Shown in pieces: positions 17,004-48,556 of a stretch of DNA of 64,000 nt. The notes below the pieces were generated by a model, which saw only the letters and a program-made list of their open reading frames with translations, searched no databases and was not told the DNA's origin. Where the stretch lies: contig JAIXOR010000055.1 of assembly GCA_027486655.1 (NCBI GenBank), forward strand, positions 26,652-90,651, read 5' to 3'. Position 1 is the stretch's first letter, and every line of letters begins with the position of its first letter. A program made the position numbers and the translations under genes. This DNA is from Verrucomicrobiaceae bacterium. Lineage in GTDB: Bacteria; Verrucomicrobiota; Verrucomicrobiia; Verrucomicrobiales; Akkermansiaceae.

Positions 17004-20000
17004 TCAGGGGGACTGGGCGGTGATACGGACGAAGAGCCTCCTACTGGCTGGCAAGACGGGACTCAGAGTGACCTGCACCGTTTCCGTATCGCCCGAAGTT
17101 CCGGTGATGGTCTGGATGGCTGCTGAGTCTTCGGTCCAATTCGTCAGGCTGGTGGTCGTCCAAATCTTGAACACCAGACCGCTCAGCGAGGACTTGCGGC
17201 GCGCGTAGGTGAACATGCCGGTGCCCGCCGATGGATAACTCAGATACGGGGTCAATGCGGTGCCGTTCTTCGGATTCAGGCCGAAGGCGTATTCCGAGAA
17301 ATTCGTGAAACCGTCCTGATCGTCGTCGTCATCAAGCCCGCCGGTAAGATTGTTGGCGCTCTTCCAGGCATCGTAGTCGGAAACCGGACCGTTGGCGACG
17401 GTGAGCGTGCCCGTTCCTGTGATAAAGCCGGCGCTGTTGGTGGAAGAATAGACGCCCGGGGATTTGGCGACGCCGCCGAGCCAGAGTTCGTCGATCGTGT
17501 CGGTGCCGGTGTAATCGAGGTGAAGGGTGGCACCGCTGGCGACAACCACGTCGGCAGCATTGGCGAGGTTGGCATTGTTGGAACCATTGCCGAGGCGTAG
17601 CGTGCCGACGTTGACCGTGGTGGGGCCGGTGTAGGTGTTGGTGCTGTTGATGTGGAGCGTGCCGTTGCCGACTTTGGTGAGACCGAACGACCCCGCATCT
17701 TCATAGAAACCGGTCACGGTCAGGGTGCCGGCATCCACGCCGATGGTCGTGTTTCCGTCGAAGCAGAATCCCGGCCCGCTGCCACTGCCGCCGTAGGTCA
17801 GGGTCAGGGCGTTGTTGCCGGAAAGGCTGCGCAGGGCACCTTGCCCGTCCACGCCGCTGCCGAGCAGGTGGAGATGTTCACCGAGACTGATTCCACCTTG
17901 CAGGGCGAGAGTGGAGCCGTTGCGGATCCAGGTCATGTTCGCGCCACTCCAACCGCCCGCGCCGAGAGCCGACGAGTGGGCGGCGGTGAGCATGCCGCCC
18001 ACGATGTCGGTGACACCGTCGTGACTGTTAGACCCGGCGAGGACCGCGTTGCCCGCGCCGGTCTTGATGAGATTCGAGGCGGCAAGCCACCAAACCTCTG
18101 GGTATTGATCGCTCAGGTTCGCATTGATCTGGAGATCGACCGACGCCGCACCGTCGGCGACGTTGAAGGTGTGGTTGGCCCCGGCGTCCGATCGAAGGTT
18201 GAGGAGGCCGCTGATGGTGTTCGTGGCATCGCCCGAGGATGTGAATCCTAACAAGCCGTCACCGTTCCATTGCCAGTTACCCGCGATGGCGCCGCCCTGA
18301 TTCAGGGCCACAGTCGCGTAAGCCCCGAAGCCGAGGTGGGAGCTGCCGGACGCGTTCACTGCGCCGCCGTTGATGGTGAGACTGGAAATCGGGTTGTTCC
18401 ATCCGAAGCCGGTGCCGTCGCCTCCGGAGAGAGCGATCACGCCTCCGGAGTTCACGGTGACGTGACCGCTGACCAAGCTGTTTCCGCCCGAAGCCCCGGC
18501 CAGTTCGAGCGTGCCCTCGTTCACCGCGGTGCCGCCGATGTGGGAGTTGATGTTGGTGAGTTTCAACGTGCCGCTTCCGATCTTGGTCAGCGTGCTGGAG
18601 CCCGCGATGCTGGAGCCGATGGTGGCCGTGACGCCCGAGCCGCTCACTTGCAGGTTGGAGCTGCCCAAGGTGGTGGCGAGTGTAAGCGTGTTGCCGGTGA
18701 GCGTGTAGTCGGAGTTGGCGAAGCTCAGGCCGCCGAGCGTGCGGTTGCCATCGAGCGTGACGGTCACGCCGGTGGCTTGCGCGAAGGTGGCTGTGGCGTC
18801 GGCACCATCGGCCACCATGGAGTTCTGCCAGTTGCCAGCCGTGCTCCAGTTGCCGTTGGTCAGGCTGGTCCAGACGCCATTTCCAAGGACCGCGCCTTCG
18901 GTGACGATCAGGCTGCCCGATCCGGTGATGAATGAGGACGCGCTGGTGTAGGTGCCTGCCGGCTGCATGACGCCGTTGTTGAAAAGCTGGCGCACGGTTT
19001 CGGCGACTCCGCTGGCGAGGGTGAGCTTGCCGGTTCCTGTTAGGAAAAAAAGCGCCGTGTCGGCAATGGCACCGGCGGTGTTGCGGATCTCGCAGGTGGC
19101 GCCGGTGCCGACGATTAGGTTTCCACTGCCGAGCGTCCCGGCGGTTTCGGCGACGAGCGTGCCTGCGTTGACGGTGGTGGCACCGCTCTGGTTGTTAGAG
19201 CCGGTCAGCGTCAATTTTCCGGCACCGGACTTGGTGATGCCGAGAACCGGCGACGCTTCGGTGATCGCCGCGCTGACGAGCAGGTCGGTGGCCGCCGCGC
19301 CGTCGGCGACGTTGAAACTCACGGCCGTATAGCCCGCATCCCCACGAATACGGATGCGACCGCCGATGGTCGCGGTGTCGGCACTGGCGAGGGTGGTGAC
19401 GGAGCTGCGGTTCCATTCGAGCTGCGGGCCGTTCGGGTTGCTGGTGCCGTTGTTGGATTGCAGCGTGCCGCCGCTCATGGTGATGCCGCCGGGGATGTTC
19501 CAGATGTGGCTGATGCCGCTGCTGGTGAGCGTGCCGCCGTTGATGACGACCGAGGAAATCTGGTCGAGCCAACCGAGCCCGGTGCCGTCGCCGGTGGTTT
19601 CCACGGTGGCTCCGGCGTTGACGGTCAGCGCGCCGCGAAGGCAGCCGGTGCCCGAGTTCGCGAATAGCACGAGCTTGCCGCCATTGACCGCGGTGCCGCC
19701 GGTGTGGGTGTTGTTCGCCGCGAGGATGAGCGTGCCGCTTCCGGAATGAAGCAGGTGGCCGCCGCCGCTGACGACACCATTGAGTTGGACCGAGTTTCCG
19801 CTGAACTCGAGTTCCGCGCCGGAAGCGATGTCGAAGTTGCCGTCGTAGCCATGCAATTCGGAAGACGAGACAATTCCCATGTCCTGACGCATCGCCGAGA
19901 CGATCTTCACGTGGCGCATGAACTGAACAGCACCGCTTTCGTCATCGTAGTTCAATCCGTAGGGCCAGAAATGAATGCCATCGCAGCCGATGGTTGCGGA

Positions 20001-23000
20001 AGGACCGTCGAGCTGCCGGATCATCGCCACCCCGTTCCCACCGGTCCACACGCCGCCTGACTGGTTGGAACCCCAGCTGCCGTAGGTGCCCACTCCCATG
20101 GTGTGTCCCATTTCATGCAGGGCGACCCGGACGCCGATCATGCCGCCGAAGTCGATCCATCCGCCGTAGCCTGCCTGGGCGGTCGGCACGTTGGGATCGT
20201 AGTTGGCTGTTAGGTGACGGTTAAAGCTGCCATAGCGGTTGTAAACGGCGACCGCTCCATCCATCGCCGCGATGACGGCCGCGCGTTTGTCGGCGGGCCA
20301 GTTTTCGTTTCCTCCGGCAAGCGAGTACGTCGTCGTGGGACTCGTAGGAGGTGTTGTGCCAACGTTCCCGGAAAAGGTCATGCGTCCGCCGGTGACGCTG
20401 GTGATGCCGCTGTAGCCCGGTGAAATGGGAATCACCAAGGTGCCTGTTCCGGATTTCGAAAGCCCTTCATTTCCGGCGAGCGGAGCGGAAACCGTGGCGG
20501 TCACGCCGGGCGCCACATTGATGAGCGGCGAGCCGGTGTTAACGTCCAGATTCAGTGTGCTGCTGCCAGCGAGCGTGTGGTTGGCGTTGGCGAAATTCAG
20601 TCCGCCGATGGTGCGAATGCCGTCGAGGGTGACGGTCACGGCACTGTTCTGCGCGATGGTGGCGGTTTTTCCCGTGCCAATGGCCACCGTGCCGTTCTGC
20701 CAGTTTCCGGCAACGCTCCAGTTGCCATTCGACGGGCTGGTCCAGATACCGGAATCGCCGAGCGTCGTGGTCGCCGAGGCCTCGTCCGAGTATGCGGAAC
20801 TACCGATCGCATTGGCGGCGCGGACTCGATAGTAATAAGTGGTGCCGGCGGAGAGGCCGAGGTCGGTGTGGGAAACCGTCCCGGCAGGTAGAGATGCGAT
20901 CTGGGTGAAGCCGCTGCCGGATGCGAGAGAGCGTTCGACGAAGTAGGAGGTTTCATCCGAGGCGTTGTCGGTCCAAGTCAGCTGGATGGAGCTGGCGGAA
21001 GCGGTGCCGGCCACGAGTCCCGATGGCACGGCGGGTGCGCCCATGGTGACGACCAGGCTGCCAGCGCCGCCGATGAGCGCCGGATGGCTGGTGGCGGTGT
21101 AGGTGCCGGGGGAGAGCGAGTCATTGTTCAGGTAAAGCCGGGCGACGGTTTCGGTGAGGCCGGAGGCGAGGATCAGCTTGCCGGTGCCATTGAGATAGAC
21201 CGAAGCGCCATTCGCCACAGCGCCGGATGCGTTGCGCAGGTCGCAGATGGAGCCCGTGTTTACGGTGAGATTGCCGGACCCCAGCGTGCCTCCGGAACCG
21301 ACGATCAAGGTGCCGCCGCTGACGATGGTGCCGCCGTCGTAGCTGCTAGAAGAATTGATTTCCATGGTTCCGGCTCCGGATTTGACCAGCACGGAAGCCG
21401 ACACCCAGTTGACTTCGGGCCATTGGTCGGAAAGCACGGCACTCACCAGAAGGTCGGTAGCGGCCGCTCCATTGGCGACGTTGAAGCTATGGTTGGCCCC
21501 AGCATCCGCGCGCAGGACAAGATTTCCCGAAATGCTGTTGGAGCTGTCGCCCGAGGAGTAGAAACCGAGAAGCCCGTCGCCATTCCACTGCCAGTTGCCG
21601 GAAATCGAGCTGCCACCGGTCATGACCACGCTCGCGTAAGTGCCGAAGCCAAGGTGGGAGCTGCCCGATGCGTTCACCGAACCCCCGTTGATTGTAAGGC
21701 TTGAAATCGAGTTGTTCCAGCCGAAGCCGGTGCCGTCGCCGCTTGTGAGGGCGAGCATCGCACCGGAATTCACCGTGATAGCTCCATTGATCAATCCATT
21801 ACCGCCGGACGCGCCGCGAAGCTCGAGTGTGCCCTGGTTGACCGTAGTGCCACCGCCATAGGAACTCACCGCCGTGAGCGCTAGTGTGCCTGCGCCTGTC
21901 TTGAGCAGCCCATCGCTGCTGAGAAGCGCGAGGCCGAGCGTGGTAGTGGTGCTGTCTGCCACCGAGATGGAGGAGGAACCCGTGCCGACATCAAGTGTTA
22001 GAGGATTCCCCTGAAGCGCGTGGTTAGCGTTACTGAAGGCGACATGACCGATCGTGCGGCTGGCATCGCCTTGGTTGATCGTGACGCCATTGGAAAGCGC
22101 CACGGTGGCGGTTTGGTCGGCACCATTGGCGATGGCGTTGCCCTGCCAGTTTCCAGAGACCGACCACTCTCCACCCGCGGGATTGATCCAGGTGGATCCC
22201 ACGACCGGAGGCACGGCCGGCAGCGCGGTGAACGAGAATATCGACGTCGCAGATCCGCTTTGCGCCACGATGGCGACGCGCTGCGGCTGTGCCACTGCAG
22301 ACAGGGTGAGTACACCACTTGAGTTGATCGAGTAGCCAATCAGTGCCGGTACGACCGACCACGTCACGGGGGCACCGGAGATGGGGCGGAAATTCTGATC
22401 GCGCACCGTGCCGCTGAAACTCACCGTGGATGTGCCACTGTAGGGAATGGCGGCGGAATACGGGCCGCTCACCTGAGCGAAGGTTGGCGTGGCGGTGTAG
22501 TTGCCGATGGCATTGATCTGCGAGGCCCCGCGATGAGGAGCGGTTGTTGGCAGGGTCGCACTCCAGAAATCCTTGCCGCCGTTGCCGGCGATGACAGTGC
22601 CGGAACTCCGTGCCAGGGAACTGGTTTGCAGGATGAAACCGGCCAGATTTCCGGTCGTGTTGGGACTGACAAAGAGCGGGTCCTGGGTGCGGTTTCCATC
22701 GATCGTCACCGGCCGGGTCACGCCGCCGCTGAAGTTGTTGTTCATGAAAAGTTGCCGCGAAAACTCAGCGCTGCGACCGGCGGCGATGAAGAGATTGTTG
22801 GAAAAGAGGACATAACTCGGGTTGGGCGTCCAATTCACATCCAGCGTTCTGCCCGGGTTGTAGAAGACGTTGTTGTAAATGCGTGTGGAGTTGCGGTTGC
22901 TTGCGAGCACGCGACTTTCGTTCCACGAGATGTTGTAGCGAGCGATCGTCATCGCCCCCGGCGCATCGCCGCCCCAGGTGTATTCCATCAAGAAGCCGCC

Positions 23001-23993
23001 CTCGTTGTCGTGGGTGTAGTTGTATTGGAAAACAGTCGCCCCGGAAACAAAGCCGTCGTTGTCGAACGCCGTGCTGTCGTTGGCATTCAGCCACTTGGTG
23101 TGATGGACGTGGTTGTACTGCCAGAGGCCGTTCACGTGGCGCGTCGGCCATGCGGCGGCGATGTTGTTTCCGTTGTCACTCAGTTGCCCGACGTAGCCGA
23201 CTTCGTTGTGTTCGACGAGTTCGTTGTCGGTGCCGAGCATCAGAATACCGTCGCCGGAGGTGGAGATGACCGTGTTGCCGCGCGCGATGACGTTCGGGCT
23301 GCAATTCGCGTAGTTCATCCCGCCGCCCATGTATTCCGCTTCGGCGTTGAACGCGATGCCCTGACCGTAAATCGTTTTCACCGTGTTCCCTTGGATCAGC
23401 ACTCCGTCGGCTTTGCCCGGCTCGTTGATCCAAAAGAAAATGCCGCCATTGTTCCGTCCACCGTCGTTGACGTTCTTGATACCACGGACATCGTGAACGT
23501 CGTTGTTGAGCAGGTTGATACCCCGCATCGTGCCGCTGCCCGACCAATCCACGCGGATGCCCGAACGGCTGCTGTCATTGCTGGCCGGGTTGGTGACCTC
23601 GAAGCCGTCGATGGTCCAATAGCTCTGCGAGGAAAGGGTGATCACCGCCCAGTTTCCATTGCCGTTGATGAGCGGTTTCGCGCCGGTGCCGTAGGCTCCC
23701 AGCGTGATTTGTGACGTGCTGTTGCCCGAGCCTTGCGGACTCAGCGTGCCGACCCAAGTGCCGCCGCGTTTGAAGAGCACCTTGTCGCCAGGTTGGAACA
23801 CGGTGGCGTTCACCTTGCCGAGGCTTTGCCACGGCGCTGCCATGCTGGTGCCGATGTTCGAGTCGTTGCCAGCAGGATCGATGTAGTAATCAGCGGCCAC
23901 CAAGCTCTCCACTGCTGACAAAACGATGGCTAGATTCAAAACGAGTCGGGGCAAATTGATGCGAAAAAACGAGGGGAAATTGAAATCGGGCAT
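17004..23993 (-). CDS. Giant secreted multidomain protein: parallel beta-helix N-terminus, PATR repeats, FN3 and HExxH peptidase-like domain, C-terminal FSYTRR-type domain
   Basis: Start MPDFNFPSFFRINLPRLVLNLAIVLSAVESLVAADYYIDPAGNDSN chosen because the tracked 24134 start reads through the regulatory element. FN3: PSGLVAGTASASSIQLTWTDNASDETSYFVERS; peptidase motif VALHEMGHTMG. Confidence 0.9.
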   Translation of the reverse strand: MPDFNFPSFFRINLPRLVLNLAIVLSAVESLVAADYYIDPAGNDSNIGTSMAAPWQSLGKVNATVFQPGDKVLFKRGGTWVGTLSPQGSGNSTSQITLGAYGTGAKPLINGNGNWAVITLSSQSYWTIDGFEVTNPASNDSSRSGIRVDWSGSGTMRGINLLNNDVHDVRGIKNVNDGGRNNGGIFFWINEPGKADGVLIQGNTVKTIYGQGIAFNAEAEYMGGGMNYANCSPNVIARGNTVISTSGDGILMLGTDNELVEHNEVGYVGQLSDNGNNIAAAWPTRHVNGLWQYNHVHHTKWLNANDSTAFDNDGFVSGATVFQYNYTHDNEGGFLMEYTWGGDAPGAMTIARYNISWNESRVLASNRNSTRIYNNVFYNPGRTLDVNWTPNPSYVLFSNNLFIAAGRSAEFSRQLFMNNNFSGGVTRPVTIDGNRTQDPLFVSPNTTGNLAGFILQTSSLARSSGTVIAGNGGKDFWSATLPTTAPHRGASQINAIGNYTATPTFAQVSGPYSAAIPYSGTSTVSFSGTVRDQNFRPISGAPVTWSVVPALIGYSINSSGVLTLSAVAQPQRVAIVAQSGSATSIFSFTALPAVPPVVGSTWINPAGGEWSVSGNWQGNAIANGADQTATVALSNGVTINQGDASRTIGHVAFSNANHALQGNPLTLDVGTGSSSISVADSTTTTLGLALLSSDGLLKTGAGTLALTAVSSYGGGTTVNQGTLELRGASGGNGLINGAITVNSGAMLALTSGDGTGFGWNNSISSLTINGGSVNASGSSHLGFGTYASVVMTGGSSISGNWQWNGDGLLGFYSSGDSSNSISGNLVLRADAGANHSFNVANGAAATDLLVSAVLSDQWPEVNWVSASVLVKSGAGTMEINSSSSYDGGTIVSGGTLIVGSGGTLGSGNLTVNTGSICDLRNASGAVANGASVYLNGTGKLILASGLTETVARLYLNNDSLSPGTYTATSHPALIGGAGSLVVTMGAPAVPSGLVAGTASASSIQLTWTDNASDETSYFVERSLASGSGFTQIASLPAGTVSHTDLGLSAGTTYYYRVRAANAIGSSAYSDEASATTTLGDSGIWTSPSNGNWSVAGNWQNGTVAIGTGKTATIAQNSAVTVTLDGIRTIGGLNFANANHTLAGSSTLNLDVNTGSPLINVAPGVTATVSAPLAGNEGLSKSGTGTLVIPISPGYSGITSVTGGRMTFSGNVGTTPPTSPTTTYSLAGGNENWPADKRAAVIAAMDGAVAVYNRYGSFNRHLTANYDPNVPTAQAGYGGWIDFGGMIGVRVALHEMGHTMGVGTYGSWGSNQSGGVWTGGNGVAMIRQLDGPSATIGCDGIHFWPYGLNYDDESGAVQFMRHVKIVSAMRQDMGIVSSSELHGYDGNFDIASGAELEFSGNSVQLNGVVSGGGHLLHSGSGTLILAANNTHTGGTAVNGGKLVLFANSGTGCLRGALTVNAGATVETTGDGTGLGWLDQISSVVINGGTLTSSGISHIWNIPGGITMSGGTLQSNNGTSNPNGPQLEWNRSSVTTLASADTATIGGRIRIRGDAGYTAVSFNVADGAAATDLLVSAAITEASPVLGITKSGAGKLTLTGSNNQSGATTVNAGTLVAETAGTLGSGNLIVGTGATCEIRNTAGAIADTALFFLTGTGKLTLASGVAETVRQLFNNGVMQPAGTYTSASSFITGSGSLIVTEGAVLGNGVWTSLTNGNWSTAGNWQNSMVADGADATATFAQATGVTVTLDGNRTLGGLSFANSDYTLTGNTLTLATTLGSSNLQVSGSGVTATIGSSIAGSSTLTKIGSGTLKLTNINSHIGGTAVNEGTLELAGASGGNSLVSGHVTVNSGGVIALSGGDGTGFGWNNPISSLTINGGAVNASGSSHLGFGAYATVALNQGGAIAGNWQWNGDGLLGFTSSGDATNTISGLLNLRSDAGANHTFNVADGAASVDLQINANLSDQYPEVWWLAASNLIKTGAGNAVLAGSNSHDGVTDIVGGMLTAAHSSALGAGGWSGANMTWIRNGSTLALQGGISLGEHLHLLGSGVDGQGALRSLSGNNALTLTYGGSGSGPGFCFDGNTTIGVDAGTLTVTGFYEDAGSFGLTKVGNGTLHINSTNTYTGPTTVNVGTLRLGNGSNNANLANAADVVVASGATLHLDYTGTDTIDELWLGGVAKSPGVYSSTNSAGFITGTGTLTVANGPVSDYDAWKSANNLTGGLDDDDDQDGFTNFSEYAFGLNPKNGTALTPYLSYPSAGTGMFTYARRKSSLSGLVFKIWTTTSLTNWTEDSAAIQTITGTSGDTETVQVTLSPVLPASRRLFVRITAQSP

Positions 23994-24067
23994 GGGGCAG
24001 GGTCTTTTGTAAGATCGGCGCAAAAGGGAAATTTGATCAGACTTAACAATGAAATGGATTCGACAGC

Positions 24068-24088
24068 TACCCGTTAAAATGTGCGGGG
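24068..24088 (-). promoter_or_regulatory. Conserved ACATTTTAACGGGTA element, copy 3
   Basis: Minus strand CCCCGCACATTTTAACGGGTA; 75 nt before ATG 23993. Confidence 0.77.
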
Positions 24089-24174
24089 TGCTCGTTTTGG
24101 CCTGCCTGGGATTCAGTTTAAAGGATACAAGCAATTCCCTTCAGCGACCACATCCCATGCAGGCGCACTTTGTT

Positions 24175-32742: not shown

Positions 32743-35652
32743 ATGATGCATGAATGGAGAAGCCGCTGCTTGTTGGCCGGACTGGCATTGCTGGCAGCGT
32801 TCGTGCCCATGCGCTCGGACGCCAGATCGGTCTCTGCGGCGTTTGTTTCCGGCGGGCGCTCGCTTTCTGTGGAAGCGGATGGTTTCACCGAATGGCTTTG
32901 TGGATATTCCGCGAAGGTGGTGGCGGGCGGGCAGGAAGTGGAATTGTCCTCAAGCGCAGGTGATCTTATCTCGACCACGGCGGCAGCTGAAACGGAGTTG
33001 ACTCCGCAAGGTGCGGCGACGGTCACCACGCGGACGATCGATTTTCCGGAGCAGGAAATCCGCTTGTTGCACCGCTTCGGCAAGATCCCCGGCTCTCCTT
33101 TGTTGTTGATGCAGGCCGGCATCGCCAACCGCGGCAAACAGCCCGTCCAACTGGTTTCGGTCACCCCGATGCGTGCGGAGCTCGCCGTGACGGGCAAAAC
33201 ATCGGAATGGTGGATCACAGCGCTCAATGACAGCGTGCAGACCGTGTCACCCGTCACTCTGCTGGCGAGGGCGGAGCAACCGGTCCCGGTGTTTGAAAAC
33301 GGCGGATTCTACCGCGGCGACGGCATCGGTTTCATGTTCGGCCCGGTGGGATCCCCGGTCGCCTACATGAACGCATCCTTCGCGAGGATCCAGGAGGACC
33401 GTGTCGCGTTCAGCTATACCGCCGACATGAGCCGGGTGAGGGTCGATCCCGGAGAAACGCGCTGGGGCCAGCAGACGGCAGTTCTGTTAGAGCCTCCTCG
33501 CGAGGCGCTGGCCCGCTGGACGGAGTGGGTGGCGGCCACTCATGGCACCCGCAACCGGCAGGGATCCGTCTCGGGCTGGAACAGCTGGCAGTTCCTCGGA
33601 GGTCAGGTCTCCGGAAAGGATGTGCTGGCGGTGGTGGATTCCGCACGCAGGTCTCCCGACCGTCTGCGACCCGCGGTGATCCAGATCGACGGCGGCTACG
33701 AGGACCCGAGCGGCGCGAAGGATTCCAACGAACGGTTTCCGGAAGGACTGGAGTTTTATGCGAAGCAGATCGCCTCCGTCGGCGCACGTCCCGGTCTGCT
33801 GATTGAGTCCGTCAACCGGGACGGTTTCTTCATTCCCTGGGTGCAGTCCGCGAACCGGGCGAGTGAGCTCGCGGGAAAAGGATATGCCTACTTCAAGCTC
33901 AACACCCAGAGGATCACCCAATACGCTCGTGGAAACGAGCGGCAGACGTCATTCGAGGTCATGCGCGACGGATTCGCCATGATCCGCAAGGCCGTCGGCG
34001 AAAACACCTATCTGGTCAACAACGACCTCAAACCCAACCGGGCAGCTCTGGGCCATGTGGATGCCCACCGCATCGGCGCGGAATCGAAACGCGATCAGTT
34101 GCGCCCCGTTTTTGATGACGTGCTGCGCTGCTTCTCCATCCAAGGACACTGGGGAAGTGTCGACAGCGACGCCTATTTCCTCGGCACCGATTTGGAAAAC
34201 ATCAGCTCCATCGCCGGCGGATGGCCGATCGTCCGCACATGGACCAGCATGGTCGGCCTGTCATGTGGCAACGCGATCACTTCGGATCCATGGTATCTTG
34301 AGGGATTCAAGCCCCTGCTCCGGAATGTGGAAACCATGACTCCACCGGCCAAGGAACGCACCGAGGTGCTGGACCTCTGCACCAGCCACGAATACCCGCG
34401 CTTGATCGGACACGTCGAGCGCGACTGGGGCCGCATGGCGGTGGCGCTGTTATGGAATCCCGGTGCCACCGAACGCACCGTGACTCTGGATTTTCATGAG
34501 GCGGGTCTCCATCCCGAGCGCCGCCATGCCGTCTGGTCGTTCTGGGATGATCGATTCCTCGGTGTCGCCAAGGGCTCCTGGACCACGCCATCCCTCGCGC
34601 CATCCGCTTCACAGCACCTTCGTTTCACGGATCTCGATCAGACCCCGGACCGCCCGGTGCTCATCGGATCCAACCTCCACATCTACTGTGGCGCGGCCGA
34701 AATCGAGCGGGTGACGAGTTTGCAGGGAGGCATGGAGATCGAGTTGACAGACGCCGGTGCCCGCGAGGGGGATCTGTTCGTTTACAGCCAGCTGACGCCC
34801 GTGCTCAAATCCGCGACCGGCTGCAAGGTGGACAAGATCGCTTATGCGGGCGAGAACGTCTGGCGCATCGCCTTGAAGGACCGCCGCATGGGCATGCCGC
34901 AGCGCGTGGAAATGAGCATCCAGCTTCCGGTTTGGAAACAACCCTGGTTCTGGTGGCTCGTCGCGCTGGCCGCCGCCAGCCTGCTCTTCGCCGCATCCCG
35001 ATACCTCGCAGGCCTGCGACTGGAGCGCGAGCACGCCCTCCAACAGGAACGCTCCCGCATTGCCCAAGATCTCCATGACAACATCGGCGCGAACCTCGCG
35101 CAAATCGGGCTCCTTACGGAACAGGTCGAACAAGCGATGAACGACCCCGATGAAATGCGCGCCCAACTGGACCGCATCTTCCATGTTTCCCAAGCGACGG
35201 CCAAGGAACTCGACACGGTAGTCTGGGCGGTGGATCCTTCCAACGACACGCTGGAGGAATTTGCGCGCTACCTTCACGGATACGCCGAAGACTATCTTGC
35301 GATGGCGGGCGTCCGCTGTCATTTCACCACCACAGAGTCGATGCCGGAGATCCATCTTTCCGCCAGCTTGAGGCATCACCTGCTGATGGTGGTGAAGGAA
35401 GCGCTGCACAACGTCGTAGGACACGCATCGGCATCGCTTGTCACCTTGAGTATCGGCATCGAGCGCCACATCATCCGCCTTGAGATCACCGATGACGGCC
35501 GCGGCTTGCCCGCCATGGACGCCCTGCGCGCAGGCAACGGCCTCGAGAACATGAAGAAACGCGCAGCCGAAGTCGGCGGCAGGTGCGAGTTTCTCCACCC
35601 GGCGTATGGCAAGGGAACCATTGTCCTCCTGACCGTTCCCGTGAAGGCTTGA
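32743..35652 (+). CDS. Fusion of a GH36/melibiase-like extracytoplasmic domain to a NarL-type histidine kinase
   Basis: Signal MMHEWRSRCLLAGLALLAAFVPM; GH-like SGWNSWQFLGG..VIQIDGGYED..RFPEGLEFYAKQIASVGARPGLLIESV..GYAYFKLNTQRI; TM WFWWLVALAAASLLFAASRYL; HisKA_3 RIAQDLHDNIGANLAQIGLLTEQ; HATPase EITDDGRGLPAMDALRAGNGLENMKKRAAEVGG. Start could be as early as 32596. Confidence 0.88.
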   Translation: MMHEWRSRCLLAGLALLAAFVPMRSDARSVSAAFVSGGRSLSVEADGFTEWLCGYSAKVVAGGQEVELSSSAGDLISTTAAAETELTPQGAATVTTRTIDFPEQEIRLLHRFGKIPGSPLLLMQAGIANRGKQPVQLVSVTPMRAELAVTGKTSEWWITALNDSVQTVSPVTLLARAEQPVPVFENGGFYRGDGIGFMFGPVGSPVAYMNASFARIQEDRVAFSYTADMSRVRVDPGETRWGQQTAVLLEPPREALARWTEWVAATHGTRNRQGSVSGWNSWQFLGGQVSGKDVLAVVDSARRSPDRLRPAVIQIDGGYEDPSGAKDSNERFPEGLEFYAKQIASVGARPGLLIESVNRDGFFIPWVQSANRASELAGKGYAYFKLNTQRITQYARGNERQTSFEVMRDGFAMIRKAVGENTYLVNNDLKPNRAALGHVDAHRIGAESKRDQLRPVFDDVLRCFSIQGHWGSVDSDAYFLGTDLENISSIAGGWPIVRTWTSMVGLSCGNAITSDPWYLEGFKPLLRNVETMTPPAKERTEVLDLCTSHEYPRLIGHVERDWGRMAVALLWNPGATERTVTLDFHEAGLHPERRHAVWSFWDDRFLGVAKGSWTTPSLAPSASQHLRFTDLDQTPDRPVLIGSNLHIYCGAAEIERVTSLQGGMEIELTDAGAREGDLFVYSQLTPVLKSATGCKVDKIAYAGENVWRIALKDRRMGMPQRVEMSIQLPVWKQPWFWWLVALAAASLLFAASRYLAGLRLEREHALQQERSRIAQDLHDNIGANLAQIGLLTEQVEQAMNDPDEMRAQLDRIFHVSQATAKELDTVVWAVDPSNDTLEEFARYLHGYAEDYLAMAGVRCHFTTTESMPEIHLSASLRHHLLMVVKEALHNVVGHASASLVTLSIGIERHIIRLEITDDGRGLPAMDALRAGNGLENMKKRAAEVGGRCEFLHPAYGKGTIVLLTVPVKA

Positions 35653-35684: not shown

Positions 35685-36347
35685 ATGACCACCCCGCCCC
35701 AGTCTTCCATCCATCCCATCCGCGTCGCACTCGTCGAGGATCAGGGAGGCTTGCGGGAATCGTTGACGAAGGCTTTGGCCGGTGTTCCCGGGATCACCTG
35801 CGTGGCGTCTTGTGCCAACGCCGAGCAAGCCCTCGAGGAGCTGCCCTCGGCGAAGCCCCATGTCGTCCTCATGGACATCAACCTGCCGGGCATGAGTGGT
35901 GTGGACTGCGTCCGCCACCTTGTCCAACTGGTTCCCGGCGTGCTGGTGGTCATGCTCACGGTCTTCGACAACACCGAGGCAATCTTCAACTCCCTGAAAT
36001 CCGGCGCATGCGGCTACCTGCACAAACCGGTGCGCGGCCGTGAGTTGGTGGCCGCGATCCGCGAGGTGGCCGCCGGCGGGTCACCCATGTCGGCGAGGAT
36101 CGCTCGCATGGTAGTGCAAACGTTCAGCAACCCGGCCCCATCGCCGGCCGCCGCACATCCGGATGGGCTCCTCACCGAGCGCGAGCAGGCCGTGCTCGAC
36201 CTTGTGCTCGAAGGGTTTCCCTACAAACAGATCGCCGACCGCTTGGATCTCAGCGTTTACACCGTGAACTTCCACATCCGGAACATCTATGGAAAACTCC
36301 AGGTCCATTCCCGTTCCGAAGCCGTGGCGAAACTGCGGAAAGGATGA
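35685..36347 (+). CDS. NarL/LuxR-family response regulator
   Basis: MTTPPQSSIHPIRVALVEDQGGLRESLTKAL..VVLMDINLPGMSG..KPVRGRELVAAIREV..LTEREQAVLDLVLEGFPYKQIADRLDLSVYTVNFHIRNIYGKL; directly follows its kinase. Confidence 0.95.
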   Translation: MTTPPQSSIHPIRVALVEDQGGLRESLTKALAGVPGITCVASCANAEQALEELPSAKPHVVLMDINLPGMSGVDCVRHLVQLVPGVLVVMLTVFDNTEAIFNSLKSGACGYLHKPVRGRELVAAIREVAAGGSPMSARIARMVVQTFSNPAPSPAAAHPDGLLTEREQAVLDLVLEGFPYKQIADRLDLSVYTVNFHIRNIYGKLQVHSRSEAVAKLRKG

Positions 36348-36448: not shown

Positions 36449-36543
36449 AAAGCCAGCGCCCCCGCTAGAGTGCGTTTGTGTGCGGTTTTCCCAGTGATCA
36501 CCGGCGATCCCGCACGCGTATCGACTTTCCGCAAGCGTCCGCC

Positions 36544-39500
36544 ATGAGTTTCCCCACCCGCCTGTCCCACATCCCGGCAGTCAAACTTCTGATTCTGGGA
36601 ACCTGCCTGTCCTTGCCGCCGTCCATGGCCGGGGAGCAGGCGATCCCCCTCGCCCGCGAGTGGAAATTCGAAATGGATGCGAAGGACGCCGGAAAAAGCG
36701 AGGCATGGTTCCGCAAAGACCTCAACGGCTCGATCCAACTGCCGGGCAGCATCACCACCAACAAACTCGGCAATCCGATCACGTCCATCCGCCAGCAGAT
36801 CTGGGGCGGCGATTTCACCGATAAACCGGTCTGGCATCCGATGCTCCGCCACGACTACCGCGGCAACGCATGGTATCAAACTGCCGTGGACATTCCGGAA
36901 TCATGGTCGGGACAATCAGTCTCGCTATTCCTCGAACGCGTCTGCTGGGTTTCCGAAGCATGGCTCGACGACAAGTCTTCCGGTGTTATCGACTCGCTCA
37001 GCGCGCCACACCACCACGTGTTCGGTCCCGTCGCGCCCGGCAGGCACAAGCTCACACTGCGCATCGACAACCGCCAACTCCACGACCTCGGTTGCAACAC
37101 CCATGCTTATCACGAGCAATCGTGCACGATCTACAATGGTGTGATCGGCAGAATCGAACTGCGCGCCACGCCGCTTGTTTCAGTTAGATCAAACCAGGTC
37201 TTCCCCGATGCCCGCACCGGCGTGGCCGAAATGCGCATCGCGCTTTCCAATGCCACCGACAAGCCGCAGGAAACGCGCATCACCACGGCCATCCTCGCCA
37301 CTGGCGGAAAGGACGTGCTCGCCAGCGAGACCCGCACGGTGACGCTGGTTCCCGGCGAAACCAAGCTCACGATCCCGTTGAAACTTCCCAAATCCACCGT
37401 GAAGCCCTGGAGCGAATTCGAGCGCCCGCTTTATCAGGCGGGCGTCGAGGTCAAGAGCACCGTCGGCACCGCAACACGCGAGGACCGCTTCGGTTTCCGC
37501 GAGTTCAAGACCGAGGGCGCGCGCTTCACCATCAATGGCACACCGGTACTGCTGCGCGGCGAGGCGAACAACGCGCAGTTTCCTCTCACAGGCCACCCGC
37601 CGATGGACAAGGAAACCTGGCTGAGAATCTTCCAACTCTTCAAGGACTTCGGCCTTAACCATTTCCGCTGCCACGCATGGACCCTGCCGCACGCCGCGTT
37701 CGAGGCTGCGGATGAACTCGGCATCTATGTGCAGGCGGAACTTCCCAACGGCGAGGCATCCGTGGCGACCGACTCGCCAGCAGGCCTCGAATGGCGGCGC
37801 AGGGAGTTCGACCGCATACTCGAGACCTACGGCAATCACCCGTCCTTCGTCATGATGTCCGGCGGCAACGAGGCCAAGACGCCGAAGATCGATCTGCTCA
37901 AGGAACTCGCCCAGCATGGCAAGACGATGGATCCGCGCCGCCTCTATGCCACCATTTCGAATCCCGAGGCCAGCGGCATCAAGGACGAGGTGCCCGGTGA
38001 TGATTTCGCCGTCGCCCACGGCAGCGCGAACGGCCGCCGCCGCATGGAACCCTACTTCAACCGCGACGCCCCGGAAACGATGGGCGACTACCGTGGAACG
38101 ATGGCGGGGCGCCCCGTGCCGCAGATCAGCCATGAGACCGGACAATGGTATGTCTATCCGGATCTATCGGAAATCGATCAGTACAACGGCGCGCTCCGTC
38201 CGGTCACATTGGAATATTTCCGCGATCTGGCAAAACAGGAAGGCGTGCTCGCCCAAGTGCCGGACTTCGTCAACGCCACCGGCCGGCTTTCGTTCGAACT
38301 CTACAAGGAAGAAATCGAGCGTTCGCTGCGCACGCCGGAATATGGCGGCTTCCAGTTGTTGGGATTGCAGGACTCCTTCGACCAGGGCGCGGCTTACGTC
38401 GGCATGGTCAACAGTTTCTTCGAGCCGAAGCCGTTTGTCACCGCGGAGAAATTCCATGAATTCTGCGGTCCGCAAGTGCCGCTCGCCCGCATGGCGAAAC
38501 GCGTCCATACCAACAACGAGTCGTTCACCGCCGACATCGAGTTCGCCAACTACGGACCGGCGCCGCTCGCCAATGCCACGCTGGCCTGGCGCGTGATGGA
38601 TGGTGAGAAACCGGTCGCGCAAGGCACCTTGCCCGCCGTTAGTTTACCGAACACCGGACTGACGCAGGTCGGCAGGGTTTCCGTCCCGCTTTCCAACATC
38701 AAGAGCGCCCGCAAATTGCAACTTGAAGTCGGCCTGCGCGGTGGCGAGTCGCGGAACCGCTGGAGTTTCTGGGTCTATCCACACACCGCGCCAACCAACG
38801 AGGAACCCGCGGACATGCTGGTCGTGAACAAACTCGACGGCGCGGCTCAGGATGCCTTGGGGCAGGGCAAGACGGTCGTGCTGCTGCCATCTGGATTCAA
38901 CAGCCCTTACGGCACGGCGATGACTCCGCCGTTCTGGTCGCCGATCATGTTCGCCAACCAGAAACAAACACTCGGAATTCTCTGCGATCCCAAACACCCG
39001 GCGCTGAAAGGTTTCCCCACCGATCTCCACAGCGACTGGCAGTGGTTCGAACTGCTGTTCCAAGCCTCCGCCATCCGCCTTAACGGCACGCCGGAATACT
39101 ATCATCCCATCGTCCAGGCCATCGATCGGCCCGACCGCAACCACAAGCTGGCCCTCGTTTATGAAACCAAGGTCGGCAAAGGAAAACTGTTAGTCTGCAC
39201 GCTCGACCTGAACCGCGACCTCGACAAGCGCCCGGTCGCCCGCCAACTCCGCCAGAGCCTGCTCGCCTACGCCGCCAGCCCGGATTTCAAACCCACCACC
39301 GAGATCCCGCTCGACGGCAACCTGCCCGCCTTCAGCCGCGAGTCCACACTCGCGCGCCTCGCTCCAAGGATGAGCGCATCGACCGAGCACGAGAATTTCT
39401 GGGCCATCAACGCCGCCGACAACAATCCGGACACCTATTGGCATTCGAACTGGAACCCGCCCGAGCCCGCGCTGCCCCATTCGCTGATCATCGAACTCAA

Positions 39501-39765
39501 GCAACCGCTCACGGCCACCGGTTTCATCTACACCCCGCGCACCGACTGCGACCACGGCCGCATCGCCCGCTACCGCATCCATGCCAGCAGCGATGGCAGA
39601 TCATGGAACCCCATCGCTGAAGGCGCTTGGGAGAACTCCGACAAACCCCGGACCGTCCGTCTCGATAATCCCACCACCGGGCGCTTCTTCAGATTGGAAG
39701 CGCTCCAGGAAGTCCAGAACCGCAATTGGACCTCGGTCGCGGAGCTCGATATCATCACGGAATAA
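36544..39765 (+). CDS. GH2-family glycoside hydrolase with C-terminal F5/8C-like domain
   Basis: LAREWKFEMDAKDAG..IQLPGSITTNKLG..WYQTAVDIPESWSGQSVSLFLERV..FTINGTPVLLRGEANNAQFPLTGHPPM.., C-term NFWAINAADNNPDTYWHSNWNPPEPALPHSLIIEL. Confidence 0.9.
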   Translation: MSFPTRLSHIPAVKLLILGTCLSLPPSMAGEQAIPLAREWKFEMDAKDAGKSEAWFRKDLNGSIQLPGSITTNKLGNPITSIRQQIWGGDFTDKPVWHPMLRHDYRGNAWYQTAVDIPESWSGQSVSLFLERVCWVSEAWLDDKSSGVIDSLSAPHHHVFGPVAPGRHKLTLRIDNRQLHDLGCNTHAYHEQSCTIYNGVIGRIELRATPLVSVRSNQVFPDARTGVAEMRIALSNATDKPQETRITTAILATGGKDVLASETRTVTLVPGETKLTIPLKLPKSTVKPWSEFERPLYQAGVEVKSTVGTATREDRFGFREFKTEGARFTINGTPVLLRGEANNAQFPLTGHPPMDKETWLRIFQLFKDFGLNHFRCHAWTLPHAAFEAADELGIYVQAELPNGEASVATDSPAGLEWRRREFDRILETYGNHPSFVMMSGGNEAKTPKIDLLKELAQHGKTMDPRRLYATISNPEASGIKDEVPGDDFAVAHGSANGRRRMEPYFNRDAPETMGDYRGTMAGRPVPQISHETGQWYVYPDLSEIDQYNGALRPVTLEYFRDLAKQEGVLAQVPDFVNATGRLSFELYKEEIERSLRTPEYGGFQLLGLQDSFDQGAAYVGMVNSFFEPKPFVTAEKFHEFCGPQVPLARMAKRVHTNNESFTADIEFANYGPAPLANATLAWRVMDGEKPVAQGTLPAVSLPNTGLTQVGRVSVPLSNIKSARKLQLEVGLRGGESRNRWSFWVYPHTAPTNEEPADMLVVNKLDGAAQDALGQGKTVVLLPSGFNSPYGTAMTPPFWSPIMFANQKQTLGILCDPKHPALKGFPTDLHSDWQWFELLFQASAIRLNGTPEYYHPIVQAIDRPDRNHKLALVYETKVGKGKLLVCTLDLNRDLDKRPVARQLRQSLLAYAASPDFKPTTEIPLDGNLPAFSRESTLARLAPRMSASTEHENFWAINAADNNPDTYWHSNWNPPEPALPHSLIIELKQPLTATGFIYTPRTDCDHGRIARYRIHASSDGRSWNPIAEGAWENSDKPRTVRLDNPTTGRFFRLEALQEVQNRNWTSVAELDIITE

Positions 39766-39774
39766 TCGATCTTC

Positions 39775-42597
39775 ATGAGGAATCTCCTTCCCCTTCTTCT
39801 CCTTGCCTCCCATGGATTTTCAGCGGGTGAGGCATCCACCAGGCTATTGTATGACTCGCCGGCCAAGCGCTTCTTCGAGTCTGCTCCGCTCGGCAATGGA
39901 CGCGTCGGAGCGATGGTCTTCGGCGGAGTCGATGAAGAACGCATCGTGCTCAATGAAAGTTCCGTGTGGTCCGGCTCGCCGCAAAACGCCGACCGAGAGG
40001 GAGCGGCTGCCGTCCTGCCGGAAATCCGCCGTCTGCTGCGCGAGGGCAGGAACCCCGATGCGGAGGCGCTCGTGAGCCAGCATTTCACCTGCGTGCCTCC
40101 AGGCTCCAACGGAGCCTTTGGAGCGAACGTGCAATTCGGATGTTATCAAGTGCTCGGCAATCTCCGGATTCTTTCCGGCAAGGTTCCGACTTTGTCATCT
40201 CCCAGCAGTCACGACGGGCAGGCCGGACAACAGATCGCGCAGGCATCCGATGGCGACCCGAATACGAAATGGTGCTTCGAACACGGCGGCAAGCCGGTGC
40301 AGTGGCAGATCGAACTGCCTGAGGACACCCGGCCAACACGCTATCAATTCACCTCGGCCAACGACATGCCGGAGCGCGACCCGCAACAATGGAAGCTCGA
40401 AGGATCGCGCGATGGCATTACATGGGTGCTGCTCGACGAACGCACGAATCAGCCACCGATTTCCAATCGCCAGGAAAGCAAGGCCTACGACATCGCAAGG
40501 CCGGGCAAATGCCGGTTCTTCCGCTTCACGTTTTCTAACAACCCCGGCGTCCCGCATTTCCAACTCGCGGAAATCGGCCTCAATAGGGTCGGCCGCAAAG
40601 ACGAAGCACCGTCCAAGTATCATCGCGCGCTCGATCTCCGAAATGCGGTCGCCTCCGTCCGCTATGAGCAGAGCGGCGTGACCCATGATCGCACGCATTT
40701 CATCAGCGCGCCCGACGAAGTTTATGTATCGAGATACTCAGCTTCCAAACCGGGCGAAGTATCCTTCAGCATCGCCCTCGATCGCCCGGAACGCGCGACG
40801 ACCACGGCGGTGGGTAACGACAGCCTGCTGATGACCGGCACGCTCAACGATGGCAAGGGCGGCGAAGGCCTGACCCACGTCACGCGCGTGAAAGTCGCGA
40901 CCAAGGGCGGCTCGGTGAAAGCCGTGGGAAACACCCTCCGGATTGAGAATGCCGATGAGGTGACACTCTATGTCGCGGCCGCCACCAATTACATGGGTTT
41001 CGCCGGCCGTCGAAGCGCCGATCCGCTCGCTGCGACAAGCGCGGATCTAACAAAAGCCATGGCCAAGGGCTACGACGCGCTGCTCGCCGATCACATCAAG
41101 GATCACCGCTCGTGGTTCGACCGCGTTTCCCTTCATCTCGGCGATGCGGATGCCGCGAAAGCCGGGGAAAGAACCACCGATCAACGCCTCGAAGATTTCT
41201 CCAAAGGCAAGGCCGATCCCGCCTTGGCGGCCTTGTATTTCAACTACGGCCGCTACCTGCTCATCGGCTCGTCGCGCCCCGGCGGGCTGCCCGCGAACCT
41301 GCAAGGGATTTGGGCGGAGGAAATCCAGACGCCGTGGAATGGCGATTGGCACCTCGATATCAACGTGCAGATGAACTATTGGCCGGCCTTGTCCGGCAAC
41401 TTGATCGAACTCCAGGATCCGCTCGATGCCTTGATCGCCTCGCTCGTCGAACCCGGCAGCAAGACCGCCCGCGCCTATTACAATGCACGCGGCTGGGTCG
41501 CCCATGTGATCACCAACCCCTGGGGCTTCACCTCGCCCGGCGAAGGAGCCTCATGGGGCGCGACCACCGGGGGTTCGTCGTGGCTGTGCCAGCACCTCTG
41601 GAGCCGCTACGAATACACCCTCGACAAGGCCTACCTCGCCAAGGTCTATCCCATCCTCAAAGGCTCCGCATTGTTCTATCTCGACAACCTGATGGAGGAG
41701 CCGAAGAACAAGTGGCTGGTGACGGGGCCCTCGAACTCACCGGAAAACGGTTTCATCATGGCAGACGGACGCAGCGCCCACGTCTGCATGGGGCCCACGG
41801 TGGACATTCAGCAGTTGCGCGAATTGTTCGGAAACACCGCCCGCGCGGCGGAAATTCTCGGCACCGATGACGACCTGCGCAAAGAGCTGCTCGCCACCCG
41901 CGCCAAGCTCGCACCCAACCAGATCGGCCCGGACGGACGACTCCAGGAATGGCTCGAACCCTACGGAGAAACCGAGCCCACACACCGCCACGTCTCCCAC
42001 CTCTACGGTCTGCATCCCTATCACGAAATCACGCCCGAAGGCACCCCCGAACTGGCCGAAGCCACGCGCAAGAGCCTCGAACGCCGTGGTGATGCCGGCA
42101 CCGGTTGGTCGCTTGCCTGGAAGATCAATCTCTGGGCCCGCCTCCACGACGGCGACCGCGCCCACAAGCTGCTGACCATGCTGCTCAACCCCACCACCGA
42201 CACCGGCGTGACCCACTTCAACGGCGGCGGCGCGGGCTCATCGAAGAACCTGTTCTGCTTCCACCCGCCGTTCCAAATCGACGGCAACTTCGGAGGCGCG
42301 GCTGGCATCGCCGAGATGTTGCTGCAAAGCCATCCGGACAGCGGCGTGCCCAGCGCGGAGCCCGTCATCAGGCTGCTTCCCGCACTGCCCTCCGCCTGGC
42401 CCGAAGGCGAAGTGAAAGGCCTGCGCGCCAGAGGCGCGGTCACAGTCGATGTGCGGTGGAAAAACGGCAAAATCATTTCCGCAAGGCTCACGCCGCAACT
42501 GGATGGAATGCTCATGATCCGTCACGCCGGACGCACGCTCATGAAGCCCACCCGCGCGGGTGTCCCGCTCGAACTGACCGCAGCTGATTTCAAATGA
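39775..42597 (+). CDS. GH95 alpha-L-fucosidase-like protein with internal F5/8C-like insertion
   Basis: LLYDSPAKRFFESAPLGNGRVGAMVFGGVDEERIVLNESSVWSGSPQNADREGA..LPANLQGIWAEEIQTPWNGDWHLDINVQMNYWPA..FQIDGNFGGAAGIAEMLLQSH. Confidence 0.93.
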   Translation: MRNLLPLLLLASHGFSAGEASTRLLYDSPAKRFFESAPLGNGRVGAMVFGGVDEERIVLNESSVWSGSPQNADREGAAAVLPEIRRLLREGRNPDAEALVSQHFTCVPPGSNGAFGANVQFGCYQVLGNLRILSGKVPTLSSPSSHDGQAGQQIAQASDGDPNTKWCFEHGGKPVQWQIELPEDTRPTRYQFTSANDMPERDPQQWKLEGSRDGITWVLLDERTNQPPISNRQESKAYDIARPGKCRFFRFTFSNNPGVPHFQLAEIGLNRVGRKDEAPSKYHRALDLRNAVASVRYEQSGVTHDRTHFISAPDEVYVSRYSASKPGEVSFSIALDRPERATTTAVGNDSLLMTGTLNDGKGGEGLTHVTRVKVATKGGSVKAVGNTLRIENADEVTLYVAAATNYMGFAGRRSADPLAATSADLTKAMAKGYDALLADHIKDHRSWFDRVSLHLGDADAAKAGERTTDQRLEDFSKGKADPALAALYFNYGRYLLIGSSRPGGLPANLQGIWAEEIQTPWNGDWHLDINVQMNYWPALSGNLIELQDPLDALIASLVEPGSKTARAYYNARGWVAHVITNPWGFTSPGEGASWGATTGGSSWLCQHLWSRYEYTLDKAYLAKVYPILKGSALFYLDNLMEEPKNKWLVTGPSNSPENGFIMADGRSAHVCMGPTVDIQQLRELFGNTARAAEILGTDDDLRKELLATRAKLAPNQIGPDGRLQEWLEPYGETEPTHRHVSHLYGLHPYHEITPEGTPELAEATRKSLERRGDAGTGWSLAWKINLWARLHDGDRAHKLLTMLLNPTTDTGVTHFNGGGAGSSKNLFCFHPPFQIDGNFGGAAGIAEMLLQSHPDSGVPSAEPVIRLLPALPSAWPEGEVKGLRARGAVTVDVRWKNGKIISARLTPQLDGMLMIRHAGRTLMKPTRAGVPLELTAADFK

Positions 42598-46294: not shown

Positions 46295-48556
46295 ATGATT
46301 CGATTGTTCGCCCGCTCGTTGAGCGCCCTTCTACTGATTTCCACCGCGCAAGCCGCCGAAGTCCCTTATCCGGCCGCGCTCGATGCCGCCGCGGTCACCC
46401 TGCCGGATGTCGCGGATATCTCAAAGAAGGGCCTAATCGTCGGTAACGGCGAGCTGAACGCCATCGTGTATTCGTCGGGCAACGATATCCGCTTGCGTGT
46501 TTCGAAGAACGATTGCTGGGACATGCGGATCAACACGGAGGAGAACGCTCCGCTGCCGACGGTCGATGTAGCGAAGCAGACCTTCACCGGCGAACAAGGC
46601 AAGCCCCAGCCGAGTTGGGAGAAATATGTGCATCCCACCGCAATTCCCTGCACCGACGTCGCCCTCGCCGCCGCCGCTGGGCAGACGGCGTGGAAAAGCG
46701 CGAGACTCGATCTCGCGAAGGCTGCCGCCACGGTGGTCTCGGACGCGGACACGACCACCGTGCGGGTGCTTTCGCAGCGCAACGTAATCCTCATCGAGTC
46801 CGCCCGCGGCGTTTCGCTGAACGGCGTCAGCGATCTCGTCAAAGACCGCGATGGCAAACCAATCTCCGGTTGGGTAAGTGATGCGAAAACCGGAAAGCGT
46901 GGCGAACTCCTCTGCCTCCAACAGAACATCCCGGGCAACGCCGATGTGCGCGGCATGGACATCTTTGTCGTCGCCGGTCGCGAGGCCTCGAAGCAGGCCA
47001 TCGCGGTGGTCACCTCGCGTGAGTCCAGGCAGCCGCTGGAAGATGCCGTAAAGCTGGTGGAAACCACTTTGAAGGATGCCAACGGAGTGGCGGATCACGA
47101 GAAAGCTTGGCAGACTTTCTGGTCGCGCAGTGGCGTCTCGCTCGGCGATCCCACCTTGCAGAACTGGTGGTATCGCATGGTGTATTTCCTCCGCACCTTC
47201 GCCCGGCCCGGCGGCAACGTGATCGGCCTACAAGCCGCGTTCGACCAGCTCGGCGGCTGGCACAATTCGCTCACGCTGAACTACAACGCCCAGCAGGTTT
47301 ATCTCACCGCCGGACCGATCAATCATCCCGAATTGATCGAGCCATTCGTCGATGTGCTCCACCGCAATCTGAATCGCGCCAAATGGTATGCCAAAACCGC
47401 CTTTCCCGGCAGCGAGGGTGCGTATTTCGCAGTCAACCTCTGGCCCTTCGAGCCCGATCCCGCGAAATGTAAGACTCCTAACAAACACCAGCACGCCTAC
47501 ATGCCCTGGGGTTACTCGTGGGGCACCGCCGGCCATTCCGCCGCCGTTCTGTGGGACTACGCGAAGTTCAAGCCCGGCAAGGACAGCCTCAAGCGCATCT
47601 GGCCGACGCTCGAACAGTTCGCCCTCTTCTACTGCTCGGTGCTGGAGATGTGCCCGATGGTCGATGGCAAGCGCAAGGTCGGCCCGACCTACTTCGCCGA
47701 GATCGGCGATTTCGGGGTTTTCAATTCCAGCTACGACATCGTTTACATCAAGTTCACCCTCAACGCGGCAAAGCAGGCGGCGAAGCTCATGGGCAACTCC
47801 AAGCTCGCCAACCGCTGCGCCGCCAACCTTGCGACCCTGCCCGATTACCCCACCGAGATGGACCCGTCCCAAGGCGGCACGGTGATCGGGCAATGGCTCG
47901 GCGGAGGTTTGCCAAAATACATGAACATCGGCAGCGAGGTGATGTCCCTGTTTCCGACCGATGAGGTGACGTGGATGTCCGATACTTACGTTAGAGAGTT
48001 GCTGGCGAGAACCATCCACCACAGCGAGAAAGTCACCCATCACATCAACTCCAACGTCGCGATGAACATCGCCCGCGCCCGGCTTGGCATGGGCGCGGAG
48101 GCCATCGCCAATACGAAGATGTGTTTCAACCCGAACTCCGACATCTCCGCCGAGCAACCGAACGGATTGTTCTACTGGAAAATCCACGGCTTCTATCTTT
48201 CCGAGCAGGTGTGCATCGCACGCTTCGTCAGCGAACTGCTGCTGCAAAGCGCCGGCGACGTGATCCGCCTTTTCCCTGCCTGGCCGCAGGGCAGCGACGG
48301 AAAATTCAGCCGTTTGCTTGCGCAGGGTGGCTTCGAGGTTTCCGCTGAGCGGGTTGCAGATGTCGTGCAAAACGTCAGTATCAAGTCCACGGTCGGAGGC
48401 ACAGCCCGCATCGCCAATCCGTGGCCGGAGAAAGAACTGAAGGTTGTCGCCCGCGGGACGGGTGCTAACATCGCGACCAGCAAGTCGGATCACGGGTTCT
48501 CGTTTCCAACAGAATCCGGAGAAACCTACACTCTCAGCCCGGCAGCATCCGAGTAA
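46295..48556 (+). CDS. Secreted six-hairpin glycosidase-like protein (GH95/DUF5703-like)
   Basis: Signal MIRLFARSLSALLLISTAQA; GLIVGNGELNAIVYSSGNDIRLRVSKNDCWDMR..; PEQ-rich C-term with ISAEQPNGLFYWKIHGFYLSEQVCIARFVSELLLQSAGDVIRLFPAWP. Confidence 0.7.
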   Translation: MIRLFARSLSALLLISTAQAAEVPYPAALDAAAVTLPDVADISKKGLIVGNGELNAIVYSSGNDIRLRVSKNDCWDMRINTEENAPLPTVDVAKQTFTGEQGKPQPSWEKYVHPTAIPCTDVALAAAAGQTAWKSARLDLAKAAATVVSDADTTTVRVLSQRNVILIESARGVSLNGVSDLVKDRDGKPISGWVSDAKTGKRGELLCLQQNIPGNADVRGMDIFVVAGREASKQAIAVVTSRESRQPLEDAVKLVETTLKDANGVADHEKAWQTFWSRSGVSLGDPTLQNWWYRMVYFLRTFARPGGNVIGLQAAFDQLGGWHNSLTLNYNAQQVYLTAGPINHPELIEPFVDVLHRNLNRAKWYAKTAFPGSEGAYFAVNLWPFEPDPAKCKTPNKHQHAYMPWGYSWGTAGHSAAVLWDYAKFKPGKDSLKRIWPTLEQFALFYCSVLEMCPMVDGKRKVGPTYFAEIGDFGVFNSSYDIVYIKFTLNAAKQAAKLMGNSKLANRCAANLATLPDYPTEMDPSQGGTVIGQWLGGGLPKYMNIGSEVMSLFPTDEVTWMSDTYVRELLARTIHHSEKVTHHINSNVAMNIARARLGMGAEAIANTKMCFNPNSDISAEQPNGLFYWKIHGFYLSEQVCIARFVSELLLQSAGDVIRLFPAWPQGSDGKFSRLLAQGGFEVSAERVADVVQNVSIKSTVGGTARIANPWPEKELKVVARGTGANIATSKSDHGFSFPTESGETYTLSPAASE

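Follow-up and report, generated by a model that had tools for sequence, protein, structure and literature searches.

A histidine kinase of Verrucomicrobiota with a GH36-like extracytoplasmic domain that lacks the catalytic aspartates

What does a glycosidase-like domain do in front of a histidine kinase? Verrucomicrobiota are major glycan degraders, and how they sense their substrates is poorly known. In the 64,000-nt stretch of DNA analysed here (called the window; the term means the whole stretch, not the feature under study), a single ORF joins such a domain to the kinase of a two-component system. A sequence-only reading had suggested that the domain might be a catalytically dead relative of GH36 enzymes, used as the ligand sensor of a surface-polysaccharide locus. 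We examined both parts of this proposal for the encoded protein (the window protein), its relatives and their loci.

Architecture and ancestry of the window protein

The ORF has the start and stop that the sequence-only reading gave it (Table 1), and the features singled out there are in place. The motifs WNSWQF, VIQIDGGYE and GYAYFKLN were found at residues 279, 312 and 380, the Asn codon of YFKLN is AAC, as claimed, and the proposed signal sequence and single transmembrane segment correspond to hydrophobic stretches at residues 9-27 and 734-757. HisKA_3 and HATPase_c are indeed complete: both scored above the Pfam cut-offs, and the H, N and G boxes are intact in the window kinase as well as in the complete fusions described below. 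Apart from these kinase domains, Pfam and NCBIfam recognised nothing in the window protein; there was no anti-sigma domain, i.e. the protein does not qualify as RsgI-type.

Table 1. Window coordinates of the kinase gene, its parts, its mapped pocket residues and the genes downstream
Feature	Position	Strand	Basis
Pseudo-GH36 sensor histidine kinase, 969 aa	32743..35652	+	single ORF
N-terminal hydrophobic segment, residues 9-27 (signal peptide or signal anchor)	32767..32823	+	hydropathy
N-terminal beta-sandwich region of GH36-like part, approx. residues 29-270 (boundaries approximate)	32827..33552	+	residues 29-730 homologous to unfused GH36-like enzymes
TIM-barrel region, approx. residues 271-545 (boundaries approximate)	33553..34377	+	profile match to TmGalA 1zy9
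D316-G317 = TmGalA D220-D221 (DD motif, second Asp gone)	33688..33693	+	alignment
L353 = TmGalA W257; onset of region shortened by about 37 residues	33799..33801	+	alignment
K385 = TmGalA K325 (O3/O4 contact retained)	33895..33897	+	alignment
N387 = TmGalA nucleophile D327	33901..33903	+	phmmer and profile alignments
R443 = TmGalA R383 (O3 contact retained)	34069..34071	+	alignment
E447 = TmGalA acid/base D387	34081..34083	+	phmmer and profile alignments
C-terminal beta domains, approx. residues 546-730	34378..34932	+	weak Melibiase_C matches in relatives; end of homology
Transmembrane helix, residues 734-757	34942..35013	+	hydropathy
HisKA_3, residues 769-833, phospho-acceptor H-box RIAQDLHD	35047..35241	+	Pfam E 5.5e-10
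HATPase_c, residues 879-968, N and G boxes	35377..35646	+	Pfam E 1.9e-7
NarL/FixJ-type response regulator, presumed partner	35685..36347	+	32 nt after kinase ORF
GH2-type glycosidase with F5/8C domain, possible target gene	36478..39765	+	domain annotation
GH95 glycosidase, possible target gene	39775..42597	+	domain annotation

The Pfam search suggested by that reading gave no Melibiase match for the window protein, and the glycosidase assignment of the sensor is therefore not taken from Pfam; the unfused relatives L126 and L021 exceed the Melibiase cut-off. Searching PDB with phmmer, the window protein matched the Thermotoga maritima GH36 alpha-galactosidase TmGalA (1zy9, E 4e-5; another entry is 5m0x) and a Thermus GH36 enzyme (6lcj, E 6e-4). 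A family profile of 26 rows (24 fusions and two unfused relatives) matched TmGalA with E 4.3e-18, which bears out a GH36-like sensor on a NarL-type kinase, and a profile of unfused relatives did so with E 4.7e-41. These values lie far beyond chance and rule out a fortuitous resemblance of motifs. AlphaFold gave low-confidence models for seven sequences (mean pLDDT 55 and 41), of a quality too low for superposing the active site on a GH36 enzyme; a fold search with a low-confidence model still ranked GH36 enzymes first, with DesK also among its best matches. With the family profile, we regard homology of the TIM-barrel and flanking beta domains to GH36 enzymes (clan GH-D) as firm, as judged by alignment. 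The unfused relatives stop at the end of the C-terminal beta domains, around residue 730 of the fusion.

Active-site residues in fused and unfused proteins

The roles of TmGalA residues were taken from PMC6089974; the PDB chain of this enzyme is numbered differently from the literature, by 12 positions, an offset that the mapped residues fit. In the window protein N387 stands opposite the nucleophile D327 and E447 opposite the acid/base D387, i.e. both catalytic Asp are replaced. In TmGalA, the exchange D387A alone cuts kcat/Km about 3100-fold (PMC6089974). Asp221, which binds O6 in galactosidases, and Trp257 are missing as well (L353 takes the place of Trp257), and the beta3-beta4 region is shorter by about 37 residues. 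Equivalents of D220, K325 and R383, which contact sugar O3/O4 in TmGalA (PMC6089974), are present. That is, the two proteins have in common the order of barrel sequences, these three residues and the overall domain order, whereas the window protein is without the catalytic pair, D221, W257 and about 37 residues, and adds a transmembrane helix and a kinase.

Searches at the level of phylum, class, family and the family of genome G211 yielded 34 fusions from three Verrucomicrobiota families (f1, f33 and f11) and 19 close unfused relatives, many of them from metagenome-assembled genomes. A distant 20th unfused protein (L022), with both Asp and no DD motif, was excluded from the counts. The window's own genome holds four fusions and one unfused paralogue. 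Outside Verrucomicrobiota, a single pattern scan, the sole test of distribution, gave kinase-only matches.

Both catalytic Asp were present in 19/19 unfused proteins and in 0/34 fusions. Taken singly, the nucleophile Asp was retained in two of the 34 fusions and the acid/base Asp in seven (versus 19/19 unfused proteins for each). The Asn of the window protein, whose conservation among such fusions the sequence-only reading wished to see checked, is no family rule: the fusions carry N, G, S, F, E, D, A or V as nucleophile residue and A, D, E, T, V, M, W, S, G, C or N at the acid/base position. The fusions L111 (6739-9981, minus strand) and L114 (4276-7416, minus strand) combine the nucleophile Asp with Ala in place of the acid/base Asp. 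No fusion has the Trp257 equivalent, and all are shorter by about 37 residues between beta3 and beta4; the segment from the beta3 motif PG to the nucleophile measures 28-43 residues in every fusion, compared to 71-87 in unfused proteins. What the aligned fusions have in common is thus the beta3-beta4 deletion together with the absence of the catalytic pair, and one fusion and two unfused proteins found after this rule had been fixed conform to it.

Among 40 columns invariant in unfused proteins, nine were retained in less than half of the fusions. The nine are both catalytic Asp, the columns aligned with TmGalA Y191, D221 and W257, near neighbours of these motifs, and one Pro from the segment that the fusions have lost. 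Most of the remaining columns were retained in more than 70% of the fusions, and the equivalents of D220, K325 and R383 in 28, 31 and 31 of 33, respectively. Most likely, catalysis has been lost in the fusions while the sugar pocket was partly kept, activity being inferred from sequence. On this level the proposal of a catalytically dead domain stands, both for the window protein and for its family.

Origin of the fusion and its genomic surroundings

In the tree, all fusions form one clade (support 100/99). The next branches outside it, L145 and then L011 with L125, are all unfused and catalytically intact, and L011 belongs to the window's own genome. The reconstructed phylogeny shows that a complete enzyme gained a predicted transmembrane helix and HisKA_3 kinase once in Verrucomicrobiota. 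Since the fusion was a single event, its association with catalytic death counts as one origin. By parsimony, the fusion ancestor had Asp at the acid/base site, which changed repeatedly after fusion; over the whole tree, at least 11 state changes were needed at this site and at least nine at the nucleophile site, with several deep nodes weakly supported. An NPCBM domain, present in unfused L011 and L125, persists in the deeply branching fusion L123 (6911-10738, minus strand), which is a possible intermediate, its long branch notwithstanding. Fusion L124 (6911-9087, plus strand) is split over two frames with part of the kinase missing, and is either a pseudogene or an assembly error.

A regulator gene starts within about 60 nt downstream in 29/29 fusions with enough contig (33 were tested; the other four stop at a contig edge). 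Upstream of the kinase gene, conservation was only weak and no convincing motif was found. Two related arrangements were seen elsewhere. In L010 (6162-13496, plus strand), from the window's genome, two different fusions stand in tandem and each has a separate regulator behind it; in L129 (7229-10313, minus strand) an unfused intact GH36-like gene has a NarL-type regulator 8 nt downstream with no kinase between, and L080 is arranged similarly.

The window has genes for GH78, GH2 and three GH95 proteins, two of these clear and one divergent. It also encodes a SASA esterase and a sugar transporter, as well as an AraC regulator and several PATR autotransporter-like proteins. Other fusion loci encode GH95, GH78, GH29, GH116, sulfatase or esterases. 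Given this glycosidase-rich content and the similar gene sets elsewhere, we conclude that the locus degrades glycans; the surface-polysaccharide locus assumed by the sequence-only reading, in the sense of biosynthesis, is rejected on its gene content. The glycans probably contain deoxyhexose. Neighbour genes vary among fusion loci, and some fusions adjoin housekeeping genes (DNA polymerase III alpha, Mfd).

Three further window genes deserve description. The divergent GH95-like protein (46295-48556, plus strand) matched with E 2e-12, compared to about 1e-170 for its neighbours. A PATR protein of 2376 aa (17004-24134, minus strand) has an fn3 domain and resembles lacto-N-biosidase 6kqs in its N-terminal part (E 5e-21). 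A second HisKA_3 kinase (4073-6310, minus strand) has a sensor with weak matches to F5/8C (Pfam E 0.0014) and, in PDB, to the Sm-hPAF lectin domain (E 0.003).

Proposed function and known parallels

We consider it likely that the window protein acts as a two-component receptor in the membrane, and that its extracytoplasmic sensor, once a secreted GH36-type exo-glycosidase, now has a non-hydrolysing glycan-binding pocket; ligand, binding and regulon are inferred, in the absence of activity or expression data. Because the catalytic machinery is lost and several sugar contacts are kept, the former digestive enzyme is now most likely a glycan sensor.

Three other explanations were weighed. The GH36-like domain could be a scaffold without sugar binding that senses membrane or envelope state or a protein partner, comparable to Klotho proteins, which are co-receptors for FGFs (PMC10628560). 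Loss of W257 and the variable Y191 and D221 positions would suit such a role, but retention of the O3/O4 contacts in 28-31 of 33 fusions and the glycan-degrading enzymes encoded at many fusion loci argue against it, so that we regard it as unlikely. Alternatively, the domain may still be an enzyme with an altered (e.g. inverting) mechanism, like GH97 members without the usual nucleophile, and the kinase may sense its own turnover or product. Inverting and retaining enzymes do occur within GH97 (PMC2670981); in the window clade, E447 could take the role of the acid, and position E405 is Glu in 32/33 fusions versus Gln in 18/19 unfused proteins. However, both catalytic positions vary freely, no replacement carboxylate is common to the fusions at either of them, and the Trp257 equivalent is missing from all fusions along with about 37 active-site residues, which makes this explanation improbable. 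Ordinary decay, leaving the domain a non-functional remnant and the kinase under control from elsewhere, would fit the lost active-site residues and the broken fusion L124 but can practically be dismissed, as the domain has kept its full length in diverged species and families and is under strong purifying selection (dN/dS of the GH region 0.08-0.17 in the window's near relatives, where dS is not saturated; kinase similar).

As a glycan sensor, the inactive pocket would bind a glycan, or a fragment of one generated close to the cell, and leave this ligand intact. The end of the complete enzyme joins the transmembrane helix directly, and the simplest reading, by inference, is a relay from the non-hydrolysing pocket via the C-terminal beta domains to helix and kinase. 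Ligand binding would shift the packing of these domains beside the helix and thereby change the kinase/phosphatase balance, the direction of the switch being inferred; the phosphorylated regulator would then adjust expression of the neighbouring GH2, GH95 and autotransporter-like genes. An alpha-galactoside as ligand is unproven, and the O6-binding Asp221 and Trp257 are lost. Their loss with O3/O4 contacts kept suggests, speculatively and without binding data, a pocket that tolerates sugars lacking the C6 hydroxyl, and this would be in keeping with the abundance of GH95 and GH78 at the locus. Pocket residues differ between paralogues within one genome (four here), and paralogous fusions probably read different glycans.

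The hybrid two-component sensors (HTCS) of Bacteroides combine kinase and regulator in one polypeptide, whereas the window kinase and its regulator are separate ORFs and the sensor is GH36-like. Like the proposed receptor, HTCS are carbohydrate-sensing two-component systems tied to glycan-utilisation loci (PMC3404733). DesK/NarX-type HisKA_3 kinases with NarL-type regulators are alike in kinase core and regulator type but differ in the sensor domain. Closer to the sensor is RsgI6 of Clostridium thermocellum, in which a GH10 fold with very low activity acts as extracytoplasmic polysaccharide-binding sensor (PMC4711584). The likeness lies in this use of a glycosidase fold, although glycan binding by the pseudo-GH36 domain is inferred; RsgI6 belongs to another phylum, and its output is an anti-sigma factor instead of a histidine kinase and response regulator. 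The tobacco chitinase-like receptor kinase CHRK1 likewise couples a kinase to an inactive glycosidase ectodomain, from which the catalytic Glu is absent (PMC10573068), but is a plant receptor-like kinase with a class V chitinase (GH18) fold. Glycosidase-derived sensors are hence already known. A two-component kinase with a pseudo-GH36 sensor was not described in the open-access full-text literature we found, which is no proof of absence, and glycosidase folds go unmentioned in a review of histidine-kinase sensing.

For the family as a whole we lean, with some reserve, towards a receptor family specific to Verrucomicrobiota: one enzyme-to-receptor conversion followed by diversification of paralogues, each pseudo-active site tuned to another glycan and each receptor driving a regulator and degradation genes of its own. 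Such a family would show, in a two-component system, the conversion of an active site into a ligand-binding site. With intact enzymes beside their dead receptor descendants, even within one genome, the fusions are a testable receptor class, and pseudo-GH36 kinases could supply ready-made glycan biosensors.
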